Source: Pelagibacteraceae bacterium AG-325-C03
GTDB lineage: Bacteria; Pseudomonadota; Alphaproteobacteria; Pelagibacterales; Pelagibacteraceae
NCBI GenBank assembly: GCA_003283025.1
Contig: QBYC01000009.1
Coordinates: 1 to 34,959, forward strand
Direction: 5' to 3'
DNA length: 34,959 nt
The notes beneath the pieces were generated by a model. The model was not told where the DNA came from. It worked only from the letters and a program-made list of their open reading frames with translations, and made no database searches. Shown one piece after another: positions 2,036 to 10,313 of this stretch; the first letter of the stretch is position 1, and every line of letters begins with the position of its first letter. A program made the translations under genes and the position numbers.

Positions 2036-2085
2036 GAATTTTATAGGATAACTAGATTTATACTAGAAACTGAAAAGATAAAATA
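2036..2085 (+). repeat. Degenerate arm-type repeat, right end of an older unit
   Basis: TTTTATAGGATAACTAG followed by ATACTAGAAAC and then a run ending in GATAAAAT parallels the right-end repeat at 6753-6800. The first repeat unit starts at 2050, exactly 104 bp before the tRNA-Leu fragment at 2154. The same 104-bp spacing is seen at 6763 to 6867 and 7896 to 8000. This supports a decayed recombination-site arm rather than a chance match. Confidence 0.5.
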
Positions 2086-2153
2086 AAAAAATCTTACTTA
2101 TTGAAATTGTTCAATTGTAAATATTAGCATAAATACTTATGAAATTCATTAAT

Positions 2154-2192
2154 ACTCTTGTGGTGAAATTAGTAGATATAGAGGACTTAAAA
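2154..2192 (+). repeat. tRNA-Leu(UAA) 5'-half remnant, copy A (degenerate)
   Basis: It aligns without gaps to the first 39 nt of the intact tRNA-Leu at 8000-8038, with 7 mismatches. All mismatches are transitions, and six of them change G or C in the tRNA to A or T here. It cannot make a tRNA because the 3' half is absent. It is interpreted as the left attachment site of inserted unit 1. Confidence 0.7.
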
Positions 2193-2216
2193 GCCGAGGG
2201 ATAGAAGTTAAAATCA

Positions 2217-2246
2217 GTCCACCGTAGTTCAAGGTAATCTAAAACA
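2217..2246 (+). repeat. Degenerate GTCTCA-type triplet, copy A
   Basis: GTCCAC, GTTCAA and ATCTAA are spaced 10 bp apart and begin exactly 63 nt after the start of tRNA copy A. The clean triplets after copies B and C sit at the same offset. It is a decayed version of the same element. Confidence 0.5.
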
Positions 2247-2454
2247 TCCTATAAAATTTCATAACTTTAATTTAGCTTTTAATTAATATTAAAGAATAAG
2301 GGTTAATTAAATTATTCAAACAAGAGTAAGATCAGTGCATATAGAGATAGATTTTAGCAAATAGACTCATTATTAAGGATTTGTTATTCTTGAATTATAA
2401 AAAATATTTTATATATTTTTTGTTATTTTGTTTATTTAGTTAAATCTTAACAAT
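2247..2454. other. Left-end sequence of unit 1 and leader of the hydrolase pair
   Basis: The first part (TTTAGCTTTTAATTAATATTAAAG near 2270-2294) aligns with the corresponding left-end sequence of units 2 and 3. A weak trace of the inner arm repeat may lie at 2319-2350. The remainder is AT-rich with no gene, no clear promoter and no Shine-Dalgarno motif before the ATG at 2455. Confidence 0.4.
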
Positions 2455-3411
2455 ATGAAAAAATTAATTATTTACTTATTTATTGTCATTTTATTTTCAA
2501 GTAATATTTTTGCAAATGATGATCGTAAATGTATAAATGAAACTGGATTTGTTAGCGATAATTTTAATTTTAGCAAAAAAATAAAATTTGAAGATCCAGA
2601 AAATACTTTAATTTTCACTTATCATCATGGCGGAGCTGCTGATGAGGCTCGTACCTCAGACTGTGTTTTTAGTGAAGAATATTTAAAAAATGCAATTAAA
2701 CTAACAAAAGAAGATTTTGGAACAAAATACAGTTATCTTTATGTAGTAAATACAAAACCATTGTATGGAGACGCTTATAAAGATAGGAAAAATAAAACTA
2801 AATGGAAAGCTTTTCCAGTAGGTGAATATCCCGGAAAAACAAAAATAGAAAAAAAAATCGATTTAATAAATGAAATTAACGAGAACTTTTATTCACAAGG
2901 AATCAAACCTGAAAATATAATCACCACAGGACATTCTAATGGAGGTTATGTATCTCTTTTGTATACAGCTAGACATCCTGATAAAGTTAGAGGTGCTATC
3001 GCTTATCACCCAGCCTGTTGTGGTAAGTTAACAAAGTCTGATATTGCAACAGAGAAAGGAAGAAAAAAATGGCTTAAAGATGAAAATTGGAAATGCCCTA
3101 TTAAAGAAAAAGGTAAGTATCCTTGTGCTGAAGCATTCTGGAAATTTAGATCAGAAATCATTGATGAAATTCAAAGTAATAAAAATCTTAAAGCTGTAGT
3201 TATACATAACAATGATGACCCTTATGACGGAGAGCATAGTGAATGGTTAAAAGAAATAAAAACTGTCAAATTCATTAAAACACCAGGAAAAAAGGATAAG
3301 TGGAAAATAAATGGAAAATCTTGCAAAAGTTGGAAGCCTTTTGGACATAATGTACACACAAGTTCATGTATGAGTGAATATTTTCCAGAAATTATAGCAT
3401 ATTTCAAATGA
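2455..3411 (+). CDS. Secreted alpha/beta hydrolase (esterase / PHB depolymerase-like)
   Basis: A 318-residue protein with a signal peptide (MKKLIIYLFIVILF, likely cleaved after residue 20), so it is probably periplasmic. THHGG-like FTYHHGG at about 54-60 is an oxyanion-hole type motif. GHSNGG near residue 161 is the nucleophile elbow (catalytic Ser), DDPYDG near 253-258 can supply the acid, and FGHNVH near 295-300 the catalytic His. This layout fits the alpha/beta-hydrolase superfamily, near the LpqC/feruloyl-esterase/poly(3-hydroxybutyrate) depolymerase group; the substrate cannot be read. Several Cys residues (CC at about 188, plus 213, 223, 289 and 304) suggest disulfides. It lies in inserted unit 1 and is followed after 7 nt by a second hydrolase, so the pair is likely one operon. 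Confidence 0.68.
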   Translation: MKKLIIYLFIVILFSSNIFANDDRKCINETGFVSDNFNFSKKIKFEDPENTLIFTYHHGGAADEARTSDCVFSEEYLKNAIKLTKEDFGTKYSYLYVVNTKPLYGDAYKDRKNKTKWKAFPVGEYPGKTKIEKKIDLINEINENFYSQGIKPENIITTGHSNGGYVSLLYTARHPDKVRGAIAYHPACCGKLTKSDIATEKGRKKWLKDENWKCPIKEKGKYPCAEAFWKFRSEIIDEIQSNKNLKAVVIHNNDDPYDGEHSEWLKEIKTVKFIKTPGKKDKWKINGKSCKSWKPFGHNVHTSSCMSEYFPEIIAYFK

Positions 3412-3418
3412 GCAAATA

Positions 3419-4258
3419 ATGAAAAAACTTTTAGTGATCGTGTTTCTTGGTTTGTTGTTGAGTGGAAACTCTAACGCTTGTGAAAAAGAGGATTTCACAA
3501 AATATATATCAGCAGGTAAAAACAAATGTATAGCAATTTTAAATTTAGGAAAGATTGATAAGGGCAAAAAAAACCTAATAGTATTTCTTCATGGTGATGG
3601 TAGTCCTAATTCTCCAAGACCAGGAATACCCAAAAAAAGTCAAATTAGATTTGCAAAAGAATTCATAAACGATAATAACAATATTTTTCTTTTTGCAAGA
3701 CCTGGTTACTTTATTAGAGAAAGAGGCAGTAGTGAAGAGGATAGATATTCATCAGGACCACGTAACGCTATTAAGAGTACAGTTGTAAATTATGATTGGA
3801 ACAATTTTCAAATACTAGCACCTGCATTACAAAATCTTAGAAAATATTATAAACCAAAAAAACTAATTTTAATTGGTCATTCTGGAGGAGCTTATCAGGG
3901 AGGTACTATTCATGGAAAAGCACCAGGATTAGTTGATATAAATATTTTGATCTCTTGCCCGTGTGACTGGGAAATTAGAAAAAAACTAAGCAACGGTAAA
4001 AAATGGGAAACAAAATCTCAATTGAAAGAATTAAAAAAAAACTCACCAAGTTTTAATTATAAAGATATAGATTTAAAATCTCTCAATATATTAATTGTTG
4101 GAAAAGATGATAAAAATACAGCTCCAGGAGTTTCAAAATATTATTATGATTTACTTAAAAAGAAAAAACTACAAGTTAATTTACATATTATCGATGGAGG
4201 CCACGGATTAAGGTCTATGCCAACAATTGGATCTATAATTAAAGAATATATAAACTAG
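3419..4258 (+). CDS. Secreted alpha/beta hydrolase
   Basis: A 279-residue protein with a clear signal peptide (MKKLLVIVFLGLLLSG, cleavage probably after SNA at residue 20). FLHGDG at 56-61 is an oxyanion-hole motif. GHSGGA at 153-158 holds the nucleophile Ser155, GKDDK near 222 is a candidate acid region, and GGHGLRS near 265-271 carries the candidate catalytic His. It is not closely similar to the preceding hydrolase outside these motifs, so the two are probably distant relatives placed together rather than a recent duplication. The start 7 nt after the upstream stop implies coupling. The first 33 bases are closely echoed just after its stop codon (see 4258-4430). The substrate is unknown. 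Confidence 0.65.
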   Translation: MKKLLVIVFLGLLLSGNSNACEKEDFTKYISAGKNKCIAILNLGKIDKGKKNLIVFLHGDGSPNSPRPGIPKKSQIRFAKEFINDNNNIFLFARPGYFIRERGSSEEDRYSSGPRNAIKSTVVNYDWNNFQILAPALQNLRKYYKPKKLILIGHSGGAYQGGTIHGKAPGLVDINILISCPCDWEIRKKLSNGKKWETKSQLKELKKNSPSFNYKDIDLKSLNILIVGKDDKNTAPGVSKYYYDLLKKKKLQVNLHIIDGGHGLRSMPTIGSIIKEYIN

Positions 4259-4430
4259 TGAAAAAATTTTTAGGGATCGTAGTTCTGGGTTAAAGGGGGG
4301 CGTTGTTCTTTTGCCAGGTGCCCTGGACCTTTCTTCTTTTAACGAGAATCTATCAGCATTTCAATACTGTGATTAAATTGAGTCTTATAGTGTGATCGAT
4401 TTATGATCAAAAAAAATATATAATTAAATT
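4258..4430 (+). pseudogene. Decayed signal-peptide ORF fragment and intergenic repeat
   Basis: Starting at a GTG overlapping the previous stop, the frame reads VKKFLGIVVLG then a stop. This matches, codon for codon in pattern, the signal-peptide start of the gene at 3419 (MKKLLVIVFLG). Adding one base after CTGGG, as in the related sequence at 5451, would continue it as LKGGVVLLPGALDLSSFNE to a stop near 4373. I read this as a frameshifted remnant of a short exported-protein gene. The block GGGGCG...TTGCCAGGTGCCCT at 4298-4323 can also fold as a hairpin, so an RNA element is possible. A TGATCG...GATCA inverted repeat lies at 4393-4409. Confidence 0.4.
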
Positions 4431-5297
4431 ATGTATTGGGGTGATTTAGCTATACTACTTGCAAGAACAACTGATCCAATAGTTTTTACTTTTGTATTCA
4501 TAATTAATTTATTATTTCCAAAAAGAATAACAATATTTATATCTGCTATTATCGCTGCTTTGCTTGCGGAAACTATCTTGTCACAATTCCCAGGAAGATA
4601 TTGGGGAGATAGAATATTTCACGGATTAATTGGTAGTACTATTCAAGCTTTAATTTCTTATAACATTATTAAACGATTCATAAAATTTAAACCAAAACAT
4701 AGAAAAATATTTATAAATTCTCTGATTGCACTTTTTTTTATAACAACAGTTGGTTATATAATTTTTATGTCAAATTTAGCTAAACAAGCATCAAAGCCTA
4801 AAAAAGAAGAAATTATTAAAACAGAAAAAAAAGTTAATAAATATGATGCGTTAAAAAATCATGAAAATCCAACTTTCTCAGATATATTACTTCAAGAAGA
4901 TAGAATTCTTTCTGATCGTGATTTTAAAATAATTGAAATTTTTAATAAATTAACTAACAATTTTAATATTTGTGATATTCAAAGTAGTCTTGGACCATCC
5001 TGTAAAGATAATAATTTTGATTCTTCTAAATATTTCCTAAATAGTTTTATATATGTTGAAAATGAAACTTTGCATTTTGAATTTGATGATTGGGATTATT
5101 ATTTTGATATAATTGAAATTTCAGATAAAGAAGCAATAATTAAATTTGAAGACAAAGCTAAACATGCCTCTTATCACGCCATTGGTATGATTAAATTTAA
5201 ATATAATAAATTCAAGTCAAAATGGTTTGTTCATTCTACAAAAACAATTTATCCTAAATCCGAGGCTGATAATAATTTCGTATTAATTTCAAAATAA
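4431..5297 (+). CDS. Membrane protein of unknown function
   Basis: A 288-residue protein not recognised as a known family. The N-terminal part (residues 1 to about 115) has hydrophobic stretches near 8-28, 31-50, 62-82 and 92-113, consistent with about four membrane helices. A Lys-rich linker (120-140) leads to a soluble, acidic and aromatic C-terminal domain (140-288) with a tract rich in Asp, Trp and Tyr (FEFDDWDYYFDIIE). The two Cys near 183 and 192 might bond if that domain is periplasmic. It is the last gene of inserted unit 1. The start ATG is the first in frame, and no clear Shine-Dalgarno is visible. Confidence 0.6.
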   Translation: MYWGDLAILLARTTDPIVFTFVFIINLLFPKRITIFISAIIAALLAETILSQFPGRYWGDRIFHGLIGSTIQALISYNIIKRFIKFKPKHRKIFINSLIALFFITTVGYIIFMSNLAKQASKPKKEEIIKTEKKVNKYDALKNHENPTFSDILLQEDRILSDRDFKIIEIFNKLTNNFNICDIQSSLGPSCKDNNFDSSKYFLNSFIYVENETLHFEFDDWDYYFDIIEISDKEAIIKFEDKAKHASYHAIGMIKFKYNKFKSKWFVHSTKTIYPKSEADNNFVLISK

Positions 5298-5637
5298 CTT
5301 TTCTATAAATAATCAAAATTTTTTTAAAAATGTATAAGGGTATAAAACCTAAAAGAATCAATTCAGGAAGCATTAACTCTTATAAAAATTTTTAGTGTTT
5401 TTAATGTGATCATATTGTGATCAAAAATAATTAATCTTTTATTTTTCAAGCTGGGCTTAAGTTATTCGAAGATTAGAAGGGGCGTTCTGTTGCCAGATGC
5501 TCCTAACTATATTTGTTGAAATATCATCCTATAGATTATGGGACAACTGGAACTAAACTGGAACCTAGAGAGATAAAACCATAATTTAGTCTTGTTAAAT
5601 TTTTAAACTTGCCATAAATACAAGTAAACAAAGGAAT
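5298..5637. other. Intergenic right end of unit 1
   Basis: No gene is visible. AAAAATTTTTAG then CTGGGCTTAAG and GGGGCGTTCTGTTGCCAGATGCTCC (5479-5503) form a second, shuffled copy of the decayed sequence at 4258-4330, and TGATCA pairs occur at 5407-5422. The arm-type repeat follows at 5541-5565. The last 70 bases are AT-rich and unlike the sequences preceding the tRNA copies at 6867 and 8000. Confidence 0.45.
5541..5565 (+). repeat. Arm-type direct repeat, right end of unit 1
   Basis: GGACAACTGG, AACTAAACTGG and AAC contain ACTGGAAC twice with a 10-bp offset. The pattern resembles the tandem GGAC/GGAAC motifs common as integrase arm sites beside tRNA-borne islands. The first AACTGG begins 93 bp before the tRNA half at 5638, against 104 bp in the other units, a difference of one repeat period. 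Confidence 0.5.
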
Positions 5638-5676
5638 GCCCTCGTGGTGAAATTGGTAGACACAAAGGACTTAAAA
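5638..5676 (+). repeat. tRNA-Leu(UAA) 5'-half remnant, copy B
   Basis: It is identical over 39 nt to the first 39 nt of the intact tRNA-Leu at 8000-8038, ending at the last base of the anticodon loop. The sequence then departs to CCCTAGGGATT instead of the TCCTT anticodon-stem strand. No 3' half follows, so this is an attachment-site remnant and not a tRNA gene. Confidence 0.85.
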
Positions 5677-5700
5677 CCCTAGGGATTGAGCAAGATTAGA

Positions 5701-5726
5701 GTCTCAGACAGTCTCAGGTAGTCTCA
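5701..5726 (+). repeat. GTCTCA triplet repeat (10-bp period), copy B
   Basis: GTCTCA occurs three times at 5701, 5711 and 5721, one helical turn apart. The block starts 63 nt after the tRNA half and 24 nt after the end of tRNA identity. The 12 nt just before it differ completely from copy C while the repeat is conserved, so the repeat is under constraint. It is probably a protein-binding site for an integrase or excision factor. Confidence 0.65.
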
Positions 5727-5800
5727 AAACATTATCAAACCTAACTTTCTTATTTAACCTTTCAATTAATGTTAAAAATTACACTTAATTAATACTCGCA

Positions 5801-5832
5801 AACTAGTGGACAGACTAGGAGATGCGGAGGTA
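5801..5832 (+). repeat. Arm-type direct repeat, left inner copy of unit 2
   Basis: AACTAGTGGAC and AGACTAGGAGAT lie in tandem with a 12-bp period, followed by GCGGAGG. The first unit begins 163 nt after tRNA half B, the same offset as in unit 3. Its tail GGAGG at 5826-5830 sits 11 nt before ATG 5842 and could double as the ribosome-binding site of the cargo gene. Confidence 0.6.
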
Positions 5833-5841
5833 AAGTATTTT

Positions 5842-6429
5842 ATGAAAAAAATAATTTATTCTATCATCTTAAGTTTCTTCTTAAGCAGTGTTGCTTATAC
5901 TGAAAACTCTAATGATCCTGAAACAAATAAAATTTATAAATGTACAGCTTTTGCAGGAGGAAATGACATAGTAGAGTTAAATTTTTCTAGGGTAAAGATG
6001 GAACCTTTTAAGATAGAGAATATTTCAAAGGTTAAACAAATTTATCTTGTTGAACATAAGACTGTAGTATTGGGCAAAAATCTCCAAACTTTTCACTATG
6101 CTATCTCAACTCAAAGCCAGATCTATTTTTTTGTTTTAAATAGTGATTTTAAAGAATTAACTATTCAAATGTTTGTAAAAGATAGTGGATGGAAATATTT
6201 CGAAATTTTTTTGTCTCTTAATGATGATAGCTTTAAAAAGATTGAAAAATATTCTGATAGATTTGGTTATTTAAAAAAGGATTATGAAAAAATTGCTTCT
6301 TTATCGCCAGCAAATTTTAACGAGGAGATATCAATATTAAAAGCATTAAAGAGTTTTACTGTTGATATACATAAATCAGGTGAGGTAAAAAAATATATGG
6401 ACTCACAAACTGCTTATAACTGTGATTAA
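5842..6429 (+). CDS. Exported protein of unknown function
   Basis: A 195-residue protein from ATG 5842. An upstream in-frame start at 5806 would run through the arm repeat and bury the signal peptide, so it is rejected. Residues 1-20 (MKKIIYSIILSFFLSSVAYT) form a signal peptide. The mature part is mixed alpha/beta with single Cys residues near the N-terminus (KCTAF) and at the penultimate position (YNCD), which could pair as a disulfide. No family is recognised. GGAGG at 5826-5830 is the likely ribosome-binding site. It is immediately followed by the next gene with no gap. Confidence 0.6.
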   Translation: MKKIIYSIILSFFLSSVAYTENSNDPETNKIYKCTAFAGGNDIVELNFSRVKMEPFKIENISKVKQIYLVEHKTVVLGKNLQTFHYAISTQSQIYFFVLNSDFKELTIQMFVKDSGWKYFEIFLSLNDDSFKKIEKYSDRFGYLKKDYEKIASLSPANFNEEISILKALKSFTVDIHKSGEVKKYMDSQTAYNCD

Positions 6430-6738
6430 ATGAGGAAATCAATATTTGAGATTTGTTTTATAATTTTTACATCTATAGTACTTCTTGCTCTCACTTATTA
6501 TTCTATTAATGGAAGTTTTATACTTTGGAGTAAAGAGCCATCGTTTATTGATATATCAAATAGATCTGGATCGGGTACTCTTTTAATAATTATTAGCAAT
6601 TTTCTTTATAGTATTTTTGGTATTTACGCTAACAAGGTTGCATCCGTTGGTTTATTTTTAACTGGTTTCTATGCTTTTATAGTATTTGTATTATCTACAT
6701 TAGGAAATATTGAAAACTTTAAAAAAAATAAGTTATAA
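6430..6738 (+). CDS. Small membrane protein of unknown function
   Basis: A 102-residue protein with hydrophobic segments near 8-28, 49-66 and 72-92, so about three membrane helices, and a Lys-rich tail. The ATG directly follows the upstream TAA, which implies translational coupling with the exported-protein gene. The arrangement YSINGSF, a polar loop and LYSIFGIYA faintly recalls the N-terminal membrane domain of FtsK, but the similarity is too weak to use. It is the last gene of inserted unit 2. Confidence 0.55.
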   Translation: MRKSIFEICFIIFTSIVLLALTYYSINGSFILWSKEPSFIDISNRSGSGTLLIIISNFLYSIFGIYANKVASVGLFLTGFYAFIVFVLSTLGNIENFKKNKL

Positions 6739-6762
6739 ATCAATTAAAGGATTTTATAGGAT

Positions 6763-6796
6763 AACTAGGAGCAGACTAGGAGATAAAGACGGAAAA
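6763..6796 (+). repeat. Arm-type direct repeat, right end of unit 2
   Basis: AACTAGGAGC and AGACTAGGAGA are in tandem with an 11-bp period, followed by TAAAGACGGAAAAT. The repeat starts 104 bp before tRNA half C. It closely matches 7896-7930, including the GGAAAAT tail. The intervening 60 bp to the tRNA are also conserved between the two. Confidence 0.68.
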
Positions 6797-6866
6797 TAAT
6801 TTTTTTTTACTTCTTCAAAACTCTTGTGTATTAATATACTAACAATAACAATAAAAATAACGACGT

Positions 6867-6905
6867 GCCCTCGTGGTGAAATTGGTAGACACAAAGGACT
6901 TAAAA
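6867..6905 (+). repeat. tRNA-Leu(UAA) 5'-half remnant, copy C
   Basis: Identical over 39 nt to 8000-8038, then CCCTAGGGATT as in copy B. The preceding 40 bases (from ACTCTTGTGTATTAATATA at about 6829) are also nearly identical to those before the intact tRNA. No 3' half follows. Confidence 0.87.
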
Positions 6906-6929
6906 CCCTAGGGATTCACAAAGTTCATT

Positions 6930-6955
6930 GTCTCAGACAGTCTCAGGTAGTCTCA
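6930..6955 (+). repeat. GTCTCA triplet repeat (10-bp period), copy C
   Basis: GTCTCA occurs at 6930, 6940 and 6950, identical to copy B through GTCTCAGACAGTCTCAGGTA and at the same +63 offset from the tRNA half. It is probably a recombination-protein binding array. Confidence 0.65.
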
Positions 6956-7029
6956 CAACATTATTAATCCTAACTTTCTTATTTAGCTCTTCAATTAACA
7001 TTAGAAATCAAGGTAAATTTATTTGTGTA

Positions 7030-7060
7030 GACTTGGAGCAAACTTGGAGATGAAGAGGAG
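7030..7060 (+). repeat. Arm-type direct repeat, left inner copy of unit 3
   Basis: GACTTGGAGCA and AACTTGGAGAT are in tandem with an 11-bp period, starting 163 nt after tRNA half C. Its purine-rich tail GAAGAGGAG lies about 19 nt before ATG 7079, rather far for a ribosome-binding site. Confidence 0.65.
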
Positions 7061-7078
7061 ATTTGATAAGCTCATTAT

Positions 7079-7867
7079 ATGAAAAAAATTCTTTTAACTT
7101 TATTGATAACTCTTTTTTTTACAAATTTATTTGCACAAAGTGAGCGTTCTTTAAAAAGACAAATTAAAAACAAAGGTCAAATTCCTATAAGCAAAGATTT
7201 AATTGGAAGCGATATATATTTAAATGTACTTCAACTGCAACTCGACAAGATTATTGAAATAGAGCTACAAGTGAAAGAAGATATAGAGGTGTCCAAAAAA
7301 AAATGCTCAAAAAAAGGATTATCGTTTGAGAAGAGCACAAAAGAATTTAATAAATGTGTAATATCTCATTGGGGTAATGATACTGGTTTATTTGATGCGA
7401 TAAATGAAATTAAAGCAGACAACACAAAAATTTCTGCACATGTTCAAATGGAAAAATATATTAGCAGTCAAAACAAAAAGAAAGAATTTGATATTAATCA
7501 AAGTTCTTTAGGAGGAGTAACTACTTTACAAGAAGGAATAGACTCTTCAATCGCTCCATTCATTTCTGGGACCTATGCATATAATCATTACAGCGATCAG
7601 GCAAAACAAACAGAAAAAATTGTTGAAAAATTTTATGATAGAAATGAAAATGGAGATCTTCTTTTAGACAAAGGAGAGGTAAGTAAACAAGTATTAAAAT
7701 TAGCTGTTACTGCGGGAGTTGCTTATTATGGAACAAAAACAATCATGAAACATATAAACAAATCTAAAGTTACAAAAGTTCAACCAACTAAAAAGAAATT
7801 TGTATATTGTACTGTTTCTATGAACCCTTATGGTTATGGATCAGGTATTGCTGTGTGTCCAAAATAA
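7079..7867 (+). CDS. Exported protein of unknown function with EF-hand-like segment
   Basis: A 262-residue protein with a signal peptide (residues 1-19, ending LFA). The mature region to about 180 is hydrophilic and probably helical, with Cys near 76 and 93. Residues 187-200 (DRNENGDLLLDKGE) resemble an EF-hand/dockerin calcium loop with D, N, N and D at positions 1, 3, 5 and 7, but the position-12 acidic residue is Lys with Glu two residues later, so calcium binding is uncertain. A short apolar stretch at 207-218 precedes a basic tail with two further Cys (YCTVS and VCPK). No family is recognised. It is the only gene of inserted unit 3, enclosed by arm repeats on both sides. Confidence 0.6.
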   Translation: MKKILLTLLITLFFTNLFAQSERSLKRQIKNKGQIPISKDLIGSDIYLNVLQLQLDKIIEIELQVKEDIEVSKKKCSKKGLSFEKSTKEFNKCVISHWGNDTGLFDAINEIKADNTKISAHVQMEKYISSQNKKKEFDINQSSLGGVTTLQEGIDSSIAPFISGTYAYNHYSDQAKQTEKIVEKFYDRNENGDLLLDKGEVSKQVLKLAVTAGVAYYGTKTIMKHINKSKVTKVQPTKKKFVYCTVSMNPYGYGSGIAVCPK

Positions 7868-7895
7868 AAGATTCTTATCCTATAAAATATGGGAA

Positions 7896-7930
7896 GACTT
7901 GGAGCAGACTTGGAGATAGAGGCGGAAAAT
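7896..7930 (+). repeat. Arm-type direct repeat, right end of unit 3
   Basis: GACTTGGAGCA and GACTTGGAGAT are in tandem with an 11-bp period, followed by AGAGGCGGAAAAT. It starts 104 bp before the intact tRNA-Leu. TATCCTATAAAATATGGGA just upstream resembles 5526-5543 at the end of unit 1. Confidence 0.68.
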
Positions 7931-7999
7931 AAATTATTTTTACTTATTTAAAACTCTTGTGTATTAATATATTAACAATAACAACAATAATAACGACGT

Positions 8000-8085
8000 G
8001 CCCTCGTGGTGAAATTGGTAGACACAAAGGACTTAAAATCCTTGCCCTTTTGGGAGTGCCAGTTCGAGTCTGGCCGAGGGCACCA
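8000..8085 (+). tRNA. trnL: tRNA-Leu(UAA)
   Basis: An 86-nt type II tRNA. Acceptor stem GCCCTCG/CGAGGGC, encoded CCA end at 8083-8085, anticodon stem AAGGA/TCCTT (8027-8031 and 8039-8043) with loop CTTAAAA and anticodon TAA at 8034-8036, variable arm, and T-loop TTCGAGT. It reads UUA and probably UUG. It is the target of the tandem inserted units upstream, whose tRNA fragments stop at the end of its anticodon loop. nadK begins only 8 nt after the CCA. Confidence 0.95.
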
Positions 8086-8093
8086 TTTTATAG

Positions 8094-8861
8094 ATGAATA
8101 AACCATTAATAATTTCTGATACAAACGTCAAATCATTAAAAATAAAAAAACAAATTATTAAAATATTTAACAAAGAGAGAATAAAAAGATCTGATATAAT
8201 TATAGTCATTGGCGGAGATGGCTTTATGCTTCAAACTCTCAAGAAAAATAAAAAATCAAAAAAATCATTTTATGGAATTAATTCTGGTAATTATGGATTT
8301 TTAATGAACAAGTTTTCTGGTAAATTAATTGTAAAAAACTTATCTAGAGCAAAAAAAGTAAATATTTCACCATTAGAGATGTCAGTTAATTCTAATAATA
8401 ACTTAAGAAAAAGTATTGCGATAAATGAAATTTCAATATTAAGACAAAGCAGACAAGCAGCAAACTTATCAATAAAAAATAATAAAAAAAATATTATCAA
8501 AAAATTAGTTTCAGATGGTGTTTTAGTTTCAACACCTGCTGGTAGTACCGCTTATAACTTATCAGTTAATGGTCCTATTTTAAATTTAAATTCAAAAAAA
8601 ATTTCAATTGCTCCAATAAGCGCTTTTAGACCAAGAAGATGGGCTGGAAAAATTGTAAGTGATAAATCAAAAGTAATTATTAAAAATTTAAATCCAAAAA
8701 AAAGACCTATTAGTGCTGTAGCTGATAACGTTGAAGTGAGAAATGCTAAAAAAATTGTTGTAAAAGTTCAAACTAAGATTAAGTTTAATCTTCTATACGA
8801 TAAAAATACTAGTTTACAAAAAAAAATAAAACTAGAACAATTAAGAAAAGAAATAAATTAA
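8094..8861 (+). CDS. nadK: NAD kinase
   Basis: A 255-residue cytosolic enzyme that phosphorylates NAD to NADP with ATP. The hallmark GGDG lies near residues 40-43 (VIGGDGFMLQTLKK), followed by the NxGxxGF-type motif (INSGNYGFLMN), the NE-containing segment (AINEISILR), and the conserved block GVLVSTPAGSTAYNLS with the NAD-binding residues. The length suits the compact alphaproteobacterial form. The start lies 8 nt after the CCA end of tRNA-Leu with no Shine-Dalgarno sequence. It is therefore probably co-transcribed with the tRNA and translated from a nearly leaderless mRNA after tRNA 3' processing. Confidence 0.92.
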   Translation: MNKPLIISDTNVKSLKIKKQIIKIFNKERIKRSDIIIVIGGDGFMLQTLKKNKKSKKSFYGINSGNYGFLMNKFSGKLIVKNLSRAKKVNISPLEMSVNSNNNLRKSIAINEISILRQSRQAANLSIKNNKKNIIKKLVSDGVLVSTPAGSTAYNLSVNGPILNLNSKKISIAPISAFRPRRWAGKIVSDKSKVIIKNLNPKKRPISAVADNVEVRNAKKIVVKVQTKIKFNLLYDKNTSLQKKIKLEQLRKEIN

Positions 8862-8864
8862 GAG

Positions 8865-8940
8865 TGGTGCCCTCACACGGACTCGAACCGCGAACCTATT
8901 GATTACAAATCAATTGCTCTACCAATTGAGCTATGAGGGC
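8865..8940 (-). tRNA. trnT: tRNA-Thr(UGU)
   Basis: On the minus strand: acceptor stem GCCCTCA/TGAGGGC, D-arm GCTC...GAGC, anticodon stem ATTGA/TCAAT with loop TTTGTAA (anticodon TGT), T-loop TTCGAGT, encoded CCA. It has 76 nt. It converges on nadK, with 3 nt between the nadK stop and the tRNA 3' end, and I see no terminator between them. Confidence 0.94.
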
Positions 8941-8950
8941 GATACGGGAA

Positions 8951-8979
8951 GATATAGAATAAAACTTAATATTCTTCAA
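8951..8979 (-). promoter_or_regulatory. Candidate promoter of tRNA-Thr
   Basis: On the minus strand TTGAAG (8974-8979) and TATATC (8951-8956) are separated by 17 bp, and the mature tRNA starts 10 nt further on. The match to TTGACA/TATAAT is moderate, and an overlapping alternative (TTGGAC with TATTCT) exists. Confidence 0.4.
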
Positions 8980-9232
8980 GTCCAATAATACTTTTAACTG
9001 AATTACACAAGCTTACATTGACTGATGGAAATGCACGCTGATGAAGAATTGTGCGATCTTGAATTAGATTTGTGAGACAACTGTATACATAATAAATAAA
9101 AATTGAAAGTTTAATTGACTACAAAGATTTTAAACTAAATAACTCTAAATATTATTTTTCAAACCTAGATAGCTTTTATAGTTTTGCTTAAACTATACAA
9201 ATAAAGTTTGATAATAGCTTAATAATGTATTT
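8980..9232. other. Intergenic stretch without a recognisable gene
   Basis: About 250 AT-rich bases between the tRNA-Thr promoter region and the end of rlmB. A relatively GC-richer patch at 9010-9062 has no open frame of note. I see no structured RNA or repeat I can support. Confidence 0.4.
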
Positions 9233-9976
9233 TTATTTTACGGATTGAAAAATATAATGACTTACTACGGATACTGTATTTGATATATTTAAACTTTCAA
9301 TATTATTATTCATGCTGACTTTAAATTTGAAGTCTGCGTTTTCAAGCGTTTTTGACTTTAACCCATAACCTTCAGACCCGAAAAGTAAAACATTTTTCCC
9401 TTTCCAGTTATTTTGAGTAAAATCTTTTCTAGCAGTAATATCAAATGCACTGACCCAAAAGTCTTTTGATTTTAAAAATTTTAATGATGTATTAAGGTTT
9501 GAAACTTTAAATATTTTTATGTGTTCCGTCCCTCCGCTAGCACTTTTATAGAGTAATTTGCTTTTAAACGGAAAAGATCTCTCCTTTACTATTAAACCGT
9601 CCATATTAAAAGCCACCGCACTTCTTATAATTGACCCTATATTTCTTGGATCTGTAACTTCTTCTAATGCTATTAAATTTATATTTTGTTTATTATTCTC
9701 TGAAACAAATTCTTTAAGTGTAATTTCTTCTAATTGCTCAACTTCTGCTACCAATCCTTGATGTGCAGTCTCATCTCTTCCACAAAGATTATCTAACTCT
9801 TTTCTTGTTTTATAAAATACAGGAGCTTTTTTAAATAAATTAAGATTTTGATTTTCTCTATTGAGTTTTTTTTTTGCATCTTCTGTTAAAAAAACTCTTT
9901 CTATTTTTCTAGATGGATTTTTTAATGCCTCTAAAACAGCATGTTTTCCGGCAATTAAAAAGGTTGATTTTTTCAT
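9233..9976 (-). CDS. rlmB: 23S rRNA 2'-O-ribose methyltransferase, TrmH/SpoU family
   Basis: A 247-residue SPOUT methyltransferase. The N-terminal substrate-binding part begins with GKHAVLEALKNP, typical of RlmB. The three SpoU motifs follow: EEVTDPRNIGSIIRSA (motif 1, with the catalytic Asn-Arg region), LLFGSEGYGL (motif 2) and SMNNNIESLNISNTVSV (motif 3), which form the trefoil-knot SAM site. RlmB methylates G2251 of the 23S rRNA P-loop in E. coli; the same role here is inferred. Another TrmH-family target cannot be excluded. It is divergent from tRNA-Tyr and tuf, which fits a translation-related neighbourhood. Confidence 0.88.
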   Translation of the reverse strand: MKKSTFLIAGKHAVLEALKNPSRKIERVFLTEDAKKKLNRENQNLNLFKKAPVFYKTRKELDNLCGRDETAHQGLVAEVEQLEEITLKEFVSENNKQNINLIALEEVTDPRNIGSIIRSAVAFNMDGLIVKERSFPFKSKLLYKSASGGTEHIKIFKVSNLNTSLKFLKSKDFWVSAFDITARKDFTQNNWKGKNVLLFGSEGYGLKSKTLENADFKFKVSMNNNIESLNISNTVSVVSHYIFQSVK

Positions 9977-10031
9977 TATTTTCAGGGTTATTTGGTCAAT
10001 TTATTAGCATAATTTATGGTAAAATGATTTA

Positions 10032-10059
10032 TTGCAATTATTACATAAATGCTTATAAA
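10032..10059 (+). promoter_or_regulatory. Candidate promoter for tRNA-Tyr/tRNA-Gly/tuf
   Basis: TTGCAA at 10032-10037 and TATAAA at 10054-10059 are separated by 16 bp, a good sigma-70-type match. It lies about 50 bp before tRNA-Tyr. Since no clear promoter is visible before tuf itself, it may drive the tRNAs and the long tuf-secE-nusG transcript together. Confidence 0.5.
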
Positions 10060-10109
10060 ACGCTTGTTGTTAAATGCTTTTTAAGTTAGTGGGTATCCCC
10101 AAGATATAA

Positions 10110-10195
10110 GGAGGGGTACCAAAGCGGTCAAATGGGGCGGGCTGTAAACCCGTTGACTTCGGTCTTCGAAAGTTCGAATCTTTCCCCCTCCACCA
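10110..10195 (+). tRNA. trnY: tRNA-Tyr(GUA)
   Basis: An 86-nt type II tRNA with acceptor stem GGAGGGG/CCCCTCC, anticodon stem GCGGG/CCCGT enclosing CTGTAAA (anticodon GTA), long variable arm, T-loop TTCGAAT and encoded CCA. tRNA-Tyr followed by tRNA-Gly and tuf is a conserved proteobacterial arrangement. Confidence 0.95.
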
Positions 10196-10239
10196 AACTA
10201 AAGGCTTTGATGACCAAGAGCGCGATAAGTTTGGATATT

Positions 10240-10313
10240 GCGGGTGTAGTTCAATGGTAGAACGCTAGCCTTCCAAGCTGGATGTAAGGGTTCGATTCCC
10301 TTTACCCGCTCCA
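10240..10313 (+). tRNA. trnG: tRNA-Gly(UCC)
   Basis: A 74-nt tRNA with acceptor stem GCGGGTG/TACCCGC, anticodon stem CTAGC/GCTGG around CTTCCAA (anticodon TCC), T-loop TTCGATT and encoded CCA. It lies 44 nt after tRNA-Tyr and 37 nt before tuf, so it is probably part of the same transcript. Confidence 0.95.

Follow-up and report, generated by a model that had tools for sequence, protein, structure and literature searches.

The tRNA-Leu(UAA) gene, which constitutes the attachment site of the locus described here, is preceded in the window (the whole analysed stretch of 34,959 nucleotides) by three copies of its own 5′ half. Compared over 40 nt, the copies at 2154, 5638 and 6867 retain 32, 39 and 39 identical positions, respectively. 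No other position on the + strand of the window reaches at least 26 of 40, and the best of 200 mononucleotide shuffles scored 26. The first-pass annotation had described three such copies ahead of an intact gene at 8000, delimiting units of 3,484, 1,229 and 1,133 bp that encode no integrase. The 40-nt match and ARAGORN bear out the copies and the gene, the half-to-half spacings reproduce the three lengths exactly, and neither the list of window ORFs nor Pfam revealed a recombinase.

Other elements of that description were correct in part. The half is indeed repeated, but the repeat is not the 39-nt half alone: about 110 nt upstream of it, including the tRNA promoter region, are repeated as well, and 6755-6909 and 7888-8042, which comprise half and upstream segment, are 90% identical. 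Similarly, the array was taken to span three units from 2036. These exist, but it reaches further to the left, where 2042-2153 is the right end of another unit and where the genes at 109-1477 have counterparts in the cargo of a unit in locus L045. Finally, the GTCTCA triplet described at +63 is found in units 2 and 3 (5701 and 6930) but not in unit 1, because the latter belongs to a different arm class, whose triplet occupies the same +63 position. The features are collected in Table 1. The NAD kinase gene on the right is present in 66 of the fetched loci.

Table 1. Features of the tRNA-Leu(UAA) array and its right flank (window coordinates).
Feature	Position	Strand	Basis or remark
Unit 0, left end cut by contig start	1-2153	+	Right end resembles other class-B right ends
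Unit 0 cargo ORFs	109-504, 509-1477 (DUF6492)	+	Homologous to L045 unit cargo; Pfam DUF6492
Unit 0 class-B right end with tRNA promoter region	2042-2153	+	
Decayed 5′ half of tRNA-Leu(UAA)	2154-2193	+	32/40
Unit 1, arm class B	2154-5637	+	3,484 bp
Unit 1 left-arm triplet AGTCCA/AGTTCA/AATCTA	2216-2241	+	10-nt spacing, +63 from half
Unit 1 cargo ORFs	2455-3411, 3419-4258	+	Alpha/beta hydrolase or S9-peptidase like, signal peptides
Unit 1 cargo ORF	4431-5297	+	No assigned function
Unit 1 right-end octamer pair ACTGGAAC	5546-5564	+	At 5546 and 5557, 11-nt spacing
5′ half of tRNA-Leu(UAA)	5638-5677	+	39/40
Unit 2, arm class A	5638-6866	+	1,229 bp
Unit 2 left-arm triplet GTCTCA x3	5701-5726	+	At 5701, 5711, 5721
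Unit 2 left octamers ACTAGTGG + ACTAGGAG	5802-5821	+	12-nt spacing; possible relic of integrase N-terminus
Unit 2 cargo ORFs	5806-6429, 6430-6738	+	First ORF: likely start 5842, signal peptide
Unit 2 right end with element-borne tRNA promoter region	6755-6866	+	90% identical to 7888-7999
Unit 2 right-end octamer pair ACTAGGAG	6764-6782	+	At 6764 and 6775
5′ half of tRNA-Leu(UAA)	6867-6906	+	39/40
Unit 3, arm class A	6867-7999	+	1,133 bp
Unit 3 left-arm triplet GTCTCA x3	6930-6955	+	At 6930, 6940, 6950
Unit 3 left octamer pair ACTTGGAG	7031-7049	+	At 7031 and 7042
Unit 3 single cargo ORF	7079-7867	+	Signal peptide, no Pfam match
Unit 3 right-end octamer pair ACTTGGAG	7897-7915	+	At 7897 and 7908, identical to left pair
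Element-supplied promoter region of intact tRNA gene, TTGTGTATTAATATATTAACAATAAC...	7916-7999	+	
Intact tRNA-Leu(UAA), attachment site	8000-8085	+	ARAGORN
NAD kinase gene, conserved right flank, outside array	8094-8861	+	Pfam NAD_kinase

The same anatomy is directly visible in related genomes. In each unit the left arm bears its triplet at +63, the right end is made of a new tRNA promoter and 5′ half, and att sites (core plus arms) are kept at both ends in nearly every unit. In 29 loci with units, the intact tRNA is preceded by the TTGTGTATTAATATATTAACAATAAC promoter motif; empty-site genomes have a different chromosomal sequence there. The two ends are observed to be paired. Left-arm and right-end classes agree in most units, with the mixed exceptions of L073 and L074 (class-B left end, class-A right end), and of 32 units, 29 have the same unit-specific octamer of the form ACTxGxxx at their two ends, where permutation gives an expectation of 6.3 and a maximum of 15 in 10,000 permutations. 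The octamers of the two ends do not match in L040. On the left, the octamers are spaced by 11 nt in 19 units and by 12 nt in 12 units, the latter agreeing with the in-frame integrase N-terminus of a satellite contig described below (L116); the N-terminal resemblance between unit and satellite integrase is short (KLVDKLED versus KLGPELGS).

Judging from these sequence patterns, an excisionase or a replication initiator probably binds the octamer pair as a second cis-acting site, which must match at both ends. More tentatively, the pair may form an evolving recognition code, such that mobilisation of a unit requires a helper with an excision or replication protein able to read its octamer; we regard this as possible, if doubtful. 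Were it true, minimal gene cassettes would be traded throughout the SAR11 population according to the specificity of their helpers, the tRNA gene serving as docking port.

Units bounded by tRNA-Leu 5′ halves occur in about 42 of the 125 genomes of the same genus that have the tRNA (roughly one third), and in other genera as well. A comparison of strains had been proposed to look for different numbers of units, and loci with 0, 1, 2 and 3 units at tRNA-Leu(UAA) were all seen, together with empty sites in which the conserved neighbour gene lies directly upstream of the tRNA. The collection-wide search for the triplet pattern returned Pelagibacterales records only. No further copy of the tRNA-Leu half was found elsewhere in the window's own genome, nor were units seen there at unrelated loci; the presence of such units without tRNA halves in related strains was what the annotation had named as speaking against site-specific insertion. 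The cargo comprises restriction-modification genes, a large defence-like helicase, secreted hydrolases, a polysaccharide lyase, pilins and whole transporter operons.

Whole units are also found nearly unchanged in diverged cells. Three genomes share an integrase-less unit of 5,026 bp at 99.94-99.98% identity, while the genes flanking it are 76-81% identical, and the identical block extends from 2-4 nt before the half to the end of the tRNA or just past it. Two other units shared by diverged genomes, of 5,378 bp and 1,887 bp, are 99.5% and 99.2% identical. As far as genome comparison can tell, recent horizontal movement of whole units is strongly supported; the transfer between cells would likely have been by phage particles or vesicles.

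The source of the recombinase had to be sought outside the units. No PF00589 integrase was found beside a unit in 169 genomes of the same genus, and no integrase or transfer gene family was present among the best 25 of the 71 Pfam families of 83 cargo proteins. Candidate helpers were found in two other SAR11 genomes, as satellites of 7.7-10 kb at the tRNA-Leu(UAA) locus which encode a tyrosine integrase of 531-549 aa and a primase. In G305, a 7,776-bp satellite with a 545-aa integrase and a primase lies between half and intact tRNA, with GTCTCT at +63 and an octamer that matches at both ends; in G272, the integrase-bearing satellite adjoins a class-B integrase-less unit. Integrase-bearing elements of the same layout are thus directly observed at the same tRNA. 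The 7,799-bp contig L116 has ends that overlap across an attP junction of the satellite type, as in a circle. It encodes an integrase, a primase and a RusA-like resolvase, with no structural family match among its nine ORFs, and so combines integrase and replication genes without capsid genes, as is expected of a phage satellite. The contig comes from a viral contig collection. The 97-aa HTH protein of the satellites was modelled with a mean pLDDT of 83, and a Foldseek search against the PDB listed the excisionases 8dgl, 4j2n and 2kvv among the matches, none with an E value below 0.35.

The annotation had also suggested a search for excision circles and for a cognate integrase with the same att sequence. 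This succeeded for the satellites, as L116 spans attP and the integrase-bearing elements share the arm layout, but none of the small units was seen as a circle, and the search did not turn up a helper whose arms and octamers are exactly those of class A or class B in the window. Among the 397 Pelagibacterales genomes searched, 8 have relatives of the satellite integrase, only two of these being seen at tRNA-Leu(UAA); the helpers came from that search, the genome contig collection yielding no relative. Scanning IMG/VR with the 26-nt class-A arm pattern gave no match, and a looser core-plus-arm pattern matched only L135. The window's own genome contains no match to the satellite integrase family. 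Two integrases on its contig C14 were considered as helpers and rejected, one residing in an element that resembles a satellite and lies next to tRNA-Pro, the other being Xer-like.

Taken as a whole, the units of the tandem array are most likely miniature integrative elements, non-autonomous, site-specific and cis-mobilizable, with satellite-type ends, and are moved in trans by a satellite integrase; the initial interpretation as a tRNA-gated array, with satellite-like units that are mobilised in trans, is supported. Between its two satellite-type ends, each unit holds one gene or a few as cargo, the left end consisting of the attachment core, three arm sites spaced by 10 nt and the octamer, and the right one of the octamer pair, the tRNA promoter region and a new 5′ tRNA half. 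The tyrosine integrase of an autonomous satellite using the same site would probably recombine the circular attP of the unit with the tRNA core. In the process, the promoter and 5′ half that the host had before would be displaced to the left as a relic, while those of the unit rebuild a working tRNA gene. Because later units would enter at the rebuilt tRNA, older ones should lie further to the left, which suggests the order of insertion in the array. We infer that the satellite integrase acts on the units in trans, and their ends may have derived from satellites in which cargo replaced the integrase, an origin suggested by the short N-terminal resemblance noted above.

Alternatively, the units could be decayed former autonomous elements (classical CIMEs) that lost their integrase after integration and move only passively, in composite with a neighbouring satellite. 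Such accretion beside active islands is the accepted model for CIMEs, also proposed for the Dehalococcoides ssrA islands (PMC5704250, PMC3146451), and the direct contact of an integrase-less with an integrase-bearing unit in G272 fits it. However, the 5,026-bp unit moved as exactly one unit and has no helper alongside in any of its three genomes, though a helper may have left again. Units with near-identical ends hold different cargo (L055 and L064), and many are 1.0-1.4 kb long with intact ends, unlike the outcome of random decay. We therefore consider passive movement of decayed elements unlikely and favour mobilisation in trans.

The same tRNA-Leu(UAA) is used by the pelagiphages HTVC105P, HTVC109P and MedDCM-OCT-S35-C6, which have the tRNA core just downstream of their integrase gene, and L119 resembles a chromosome-phage junction at this core. 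Mobilisation by a pelagiphage integrase is nevertheless quite improbable. Neither a GTCTC or AGTCC triplet at +63 nor an octamer pair is present around the phage core, and the phage integrase gene measures about 0.9 kb (<300 aa), as opposed to 531-549 aa in the layout-matching satellites. Because the phage arms differ from those of the units, this driver was set aside.

SAR11 bacteria recombine frequently, and homologous recombination of the chromosomal region could spread units whose tRNA halves merely mark old insertions. Some units do lie in closely related loci, such as L063 and L065, which are 96-98% identical throughout. Against this, the near-identity described above ends on the left at the half and on the right with the tRNA or shortly behind it, and flanking homology of comparable identity is limited to the tRNA itself, so that there is little chance of this explanation being correct. 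Equally remote is movement of the units by a host Xer-like tyrosine recombinase. Most of the 120 genomes in which PF00589 was matched have such an enzyme, which measures about 310-325 aa and whose gene is distant from the tRNA. The unit ends, however, share arm-site arrays with satellites that encode their own long integrase, and Xer-type enzymes, to our knowledge, need no such arms.

Units moved in trans by satellites would bear on a wider question. SAR11 bacteria are among the most abundant bacteria, have very small genomes and are generally thought to be poor in mobile elements, which raises the question of how their variable genes arrive. The locus provides a defined docking site, defined ends and near-identical units in otherwise diverged cells. 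Its stacked cassettes illustrate one route by which stripped-down SAR11 genomes gain genes, apparently with an integrase borrowed from larger satellites that use the same tRNA site. The system also opens the way to direct tests of helper-unit pairing and of carriage in phage particles.

Among known systems, CIMEs have no integrase, keep att sites at both ends and stack in tandem at one target gene, and the classical ones are described as decayed ICEs or IMEs (PMC5704250). The SAR11 units resemble them in all three respects, carrying neither integrase nor transfer genes and retaining both att sites. Unlike CIMEs, most of them measure 1-8 kb and hold one cargo gene or a few. Their compact ends, which include a paired octamer, correspond to those of satellites and not of ICEs, and their recent transfer was one unit at a time. 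The ssrA islands of Dehalococcoides are likewise arranged in tandem at one tRNA-like gene; 15 were counted without an integration module, and mobilisation by neighbours was proposed (PMC3146451). They involve a serine recombinase and a repeat of the 3′ end of the target, whereas in SAR11 a tyrosine integrase is implicated, a promoter and 5′ half are supplied, and units are as small as 1 kb. The tycheposons of Prochlorococcus and the tycheposon-like islands of Methylophilaceae, cargo-bearing elements of streamlined marine bacteria, use a tyrosine recombinase and a tRNA gene; tycheposons are reported to span 4-200 kb and to encode their own recombinase (PMC10872708). The SAR11 units are similarly inserted with cargo at a tRNA gene but start at about 1 kb and have no tyrosine recombinase, which is found in the candidate helper satellites instead.

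The candidate helpers (7.7-10 kb, integrase and primase, no capsid genes seen) resemble PICMI, other small marine phage satellites and VEIMEs (PMC10803314, PMC11389934), although they use tRNA-Leu in SAR11 whereas PICMIs integrate next to fis in Vibrionaceae (PMC10803314); the small units differ in having no integration or replication genes at all. The ‘Charybdis’ ocean elements are described with marine group II archaea as hosts, a description that does not mention Pelagibacter (PMC12324425). HTVC105P and HTVC109P share the tRNA-Leu(UAA) core with the units but are full phage genomes with different arm sequences and a different integrase; where a prophage would have phage genes between its att sites, the window units hold cargo ORFs only. 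In their working, the units would be like the gene cassettes of integrons, single-gene units stacked at one site and moved by an integrase in trans. No integron integrase was seen in them, and their boundaries are tRNA 5′ halves with arm triplets. In contrast to integron cassettes, the site is a tRNA gene, to which each unit brings its own promoter and half site.

The first-pass annotation had placed three copies of the tRNA-Leu(UAA) 5' half ahead of the intact gene, and all three were recovered, with half-to-half distances of 3,484, 1,229 and 1,133 bp. No further position on the + strand of the window matched the half at 26 or more of 40 nt, 26 being the shuffle maximum, and no additional copy was found elsewhere in the same genome. 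The repeats extend well past the half itself, as 6755-6909 is 90% identical to 7888-8042 and 5626-5793 is 84% identical to 6855-7022. Because an additional right end lies upstream of the first half, and the cargo of a unit in another locus (L045) has homologues in the genes at 109-1477, the array comprises at least four units.

Features of the tRNA-Leu(UAA) array in the window
Feature	Position	Remark
Additional unit right end	2042-2153	upstream of 2154
Copy of tRNA first 40 nt, start of unit 1	2154	32/40
Conserved leader	3419-3470	
Truncated leader copy	4259-4295	
Copy of tRNA first 40 nt, start of unit 2	5638	39/40
Copy of tRNA first 40 nt, start of unit 3	6867	39/40
Intact tRNA-Leu(UAA)	8000-8085	

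Each unit opens with the 5' half (the core), followed from +63 by three arm sites at 10-nt spacing, which are either GTCTCA-like (class A; window units 2 and 3) or AGTCCA-like (class B; unit 1). Next is an AT-rich stretch, and around +160 to +185 an octamer of the form ACTxGxxx appears once or twice before the cargo. At the right end, an octamer pair with 11-nt spacing lies about 95 nt ahead of the next core, and the unit terminates in a new 5' half after a second AT-rich stretch, which should contain the tRNA promoter. From this anatomy, the right end provides the tRNA with its promoter region and 5' half, and the leftmost relic is the original promoter region and half. Right ends in loci L180, L181 and L175 show a third promoter/arm class, ending in GATATAACAATGCAAA and of the type of the G272 helper described below, so that at least three arm classes make use of this tRNA. 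In the mixed units of L073, L074 and L040, left and right ends differ in class or octamer, as if two adjoining units had fused.

Of the 32 units in which both ends have an octamer, 29 have left and right octamers that are identical to each other, compared with a mean of 6.3 and a maximum of 15 matches when right ends were re-paired among units (10,000 trials), a difference that is not an exact probability given that the permutation set contains related units. The octamers are varied (ACTAGGAG, ACTAGAAG, ACTGGAAG, ACTTGGAG, ACTAGAGC, ACTGGTAC, ACTGGACG, ACTAGGAT and others); window unit 2 has ACTAGGAG and unit 3 ACTTGGAG at both ends. Presumably, the octamer plays a role in the units.

A 5,026-bp unit found in L066, L069 and L070 is 99.94-99.98% identical among these loci, while adjacent genes reach 76-81%; near-identity begins 2-4 nt ahead of the half and stops where the tRNA ends or no more than about 20 nt from there. 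Two more unit pairs behave alike (5,378 bp at 99.5%; 1,887 bp at 99.2%), and L073 and L074 have a 2,374-bp unit in common at 98.8% identity, compared with 76% in the NAD kinase gene. This is strong sequence evidence that units move singly. In L055 and L064, a left end of 209 bp (100%) and a right part of 1,387 bp (99.9%) are common to both loci and enclose different genes, and thus cargo was swapped between fixed ends.

The tRNA query matched in 125 of 169 same-genus genomes, about 42 of which have more than one match; the extra matches are mostly 5' halves, with 3' halves in two genomes (G020, G024). In most loci fetched from multi-copy genomes, the intact tRNA is preceded by a 5' half. The chromosomal promoter type without a half occurs in 11 fetched loci, from a set enriched for multi-copy genomes; the remaining loci have either an element-type promoter with no half nearby or a promoter of another type. 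In other genera, units are present in L180-L185 and absent from L186-L195. The suggested comparison of strains thus yielded both occupied and unoccupied sites. Several of the unit-bearing genomes from other genera are single-contig, and the 21 records that an arm pattern retrieved from named genomes are all from Pelagibacterales, several of them from single cells, which makes a metagenome-binning artefact unlikely.

Complete tRNA-Leu 3' halves downstream of the intact gene (L043, +1083; L044, +791 relative to the tRNA) bound small integrase-less units of 0.8-1.1 kb on its opposite side, so that insertion at this tRNA has a second geometry; in L044, a 196-aa HTH-like protein is part of the cargo. 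In L049, L062 and L071, a 6.9-kb sugar-type ABC-transporter operon, 95-98% identical among genomes, lies between an arm-less half (-6.9 kb) and the tRNA, probably as an older, domesticated insertion. In L175 (1419-5075), L039 and L043, type IV pilin-like genes (MNRKAFTLIELLVVVAIIGILAAVGVVAYNGYT) are repeated in runs that make up the cargo of several units or adjoin them. In the window and many units (L043, L048, L051, L064 and L073 among them), a conserved leader (MKKLLGIVVLGLLW...), conserved also as DNA, precedes unrelated mature proteins; three more stretches of the same genome match its DNA (E below 0.01). It may be a common secretion leader to which new cargo gets fused.

Comparison of integrase and tRNA-match coordinates revealed no PF00589 integrase adjoining a unit in the 169 genomes; PF00589 matches occur in 120, mostly as a Xer-like enzyme of about 310-325 aa encoded elsewhere. 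An IMG/VR core scan retrieved a candidate helper satellite, L116, a contig of 7,799 bp with 97-nt ends that overlap across an attP, with GTCTCT at +63. The contig carries genes for a 545-aa integrase, a primase and a RusA-like resolvase, its proteins gave no structural family match, and it has relatives in L131, L135 and L137. A wider genome search located this integrase family at the same tRNA-Leu in genomes G305 and G272. The G305 satellite spans 7,776 bp from half to tRNA, with the same downstream genes as the window; one stop codon was flagged in the alignment of the first search, yet the 545-aa ORF is open. This satellite has its octamer, ACTAGAAA, both at the right end and within the first integrase codons, an arrangement repeated in L116, L131, L135 and L137 (CTAGGGTC, CTAGGATC, ACTAGTAA and CTAGGGTC, respectively). 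The integrase-bearing element of G272 has, directly on its left, a class-B unit whose octamers match (CCAGCACA). The searches found no helper with exactly the arms of the window. We infer that satellites act on the units in trans, and likewise that packaging takes place; the satellite HTH protein is a candidate excisionase. Another satellite-like element of the same genome (L179, on contig C14 of G000, 3796-10294) lies by tRNA-Pro(UGG) and contains a 465-aa integrase, a 713-aa ORF and small ORFs.

Left octamers lie 12 nt apart in 12 units, the spacing seen in integrase genes, and there allow the reading M-C-K-L-V-D-K-L-E-D, which resembles MTEKLGHELD, the start of the L142 integrase; in 19 units they lie 11 nt apart, as at right ends. 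This resemblance is consistent with cargo having replaced an integrase gene just past its first codons, the right-end form sometimes being copied afterwards.

Pelagiphages share the tRNA core with the units, but not the arms. One IMG/VR contig, L124, has PhoH-like and other phage genes and terminates (4423-5129) in a class-B unit right end, complete with an octamer pair (CCTGTACA) of its own and a tRNA half; it may represent a phage carrying unit ends. In L119 (1-420), a class-B promoter region and 5' half run directly into DNA with a T7-like RNA polymerase gene, apparently a junction of chromosome and pelagiphage at this tRNA.

With no integrase and an att site at either end, the units match the working definition of cis-mobilizable elements. 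Compared with those described in the open-access papers searched, they differ in their small size, single-gene cargo, satellite-type ends, paired variable octamer and the strength of the sequence evidence for single-unit movement. Tycheposons (PMC10872708) and PICMIs (PMC10803314) are closer to the helpers than to the units, and the nearest parallel in those papers comes from Dehalococcoides, where integrase-less islands lie in tandem at ssrA (PMC3146451).
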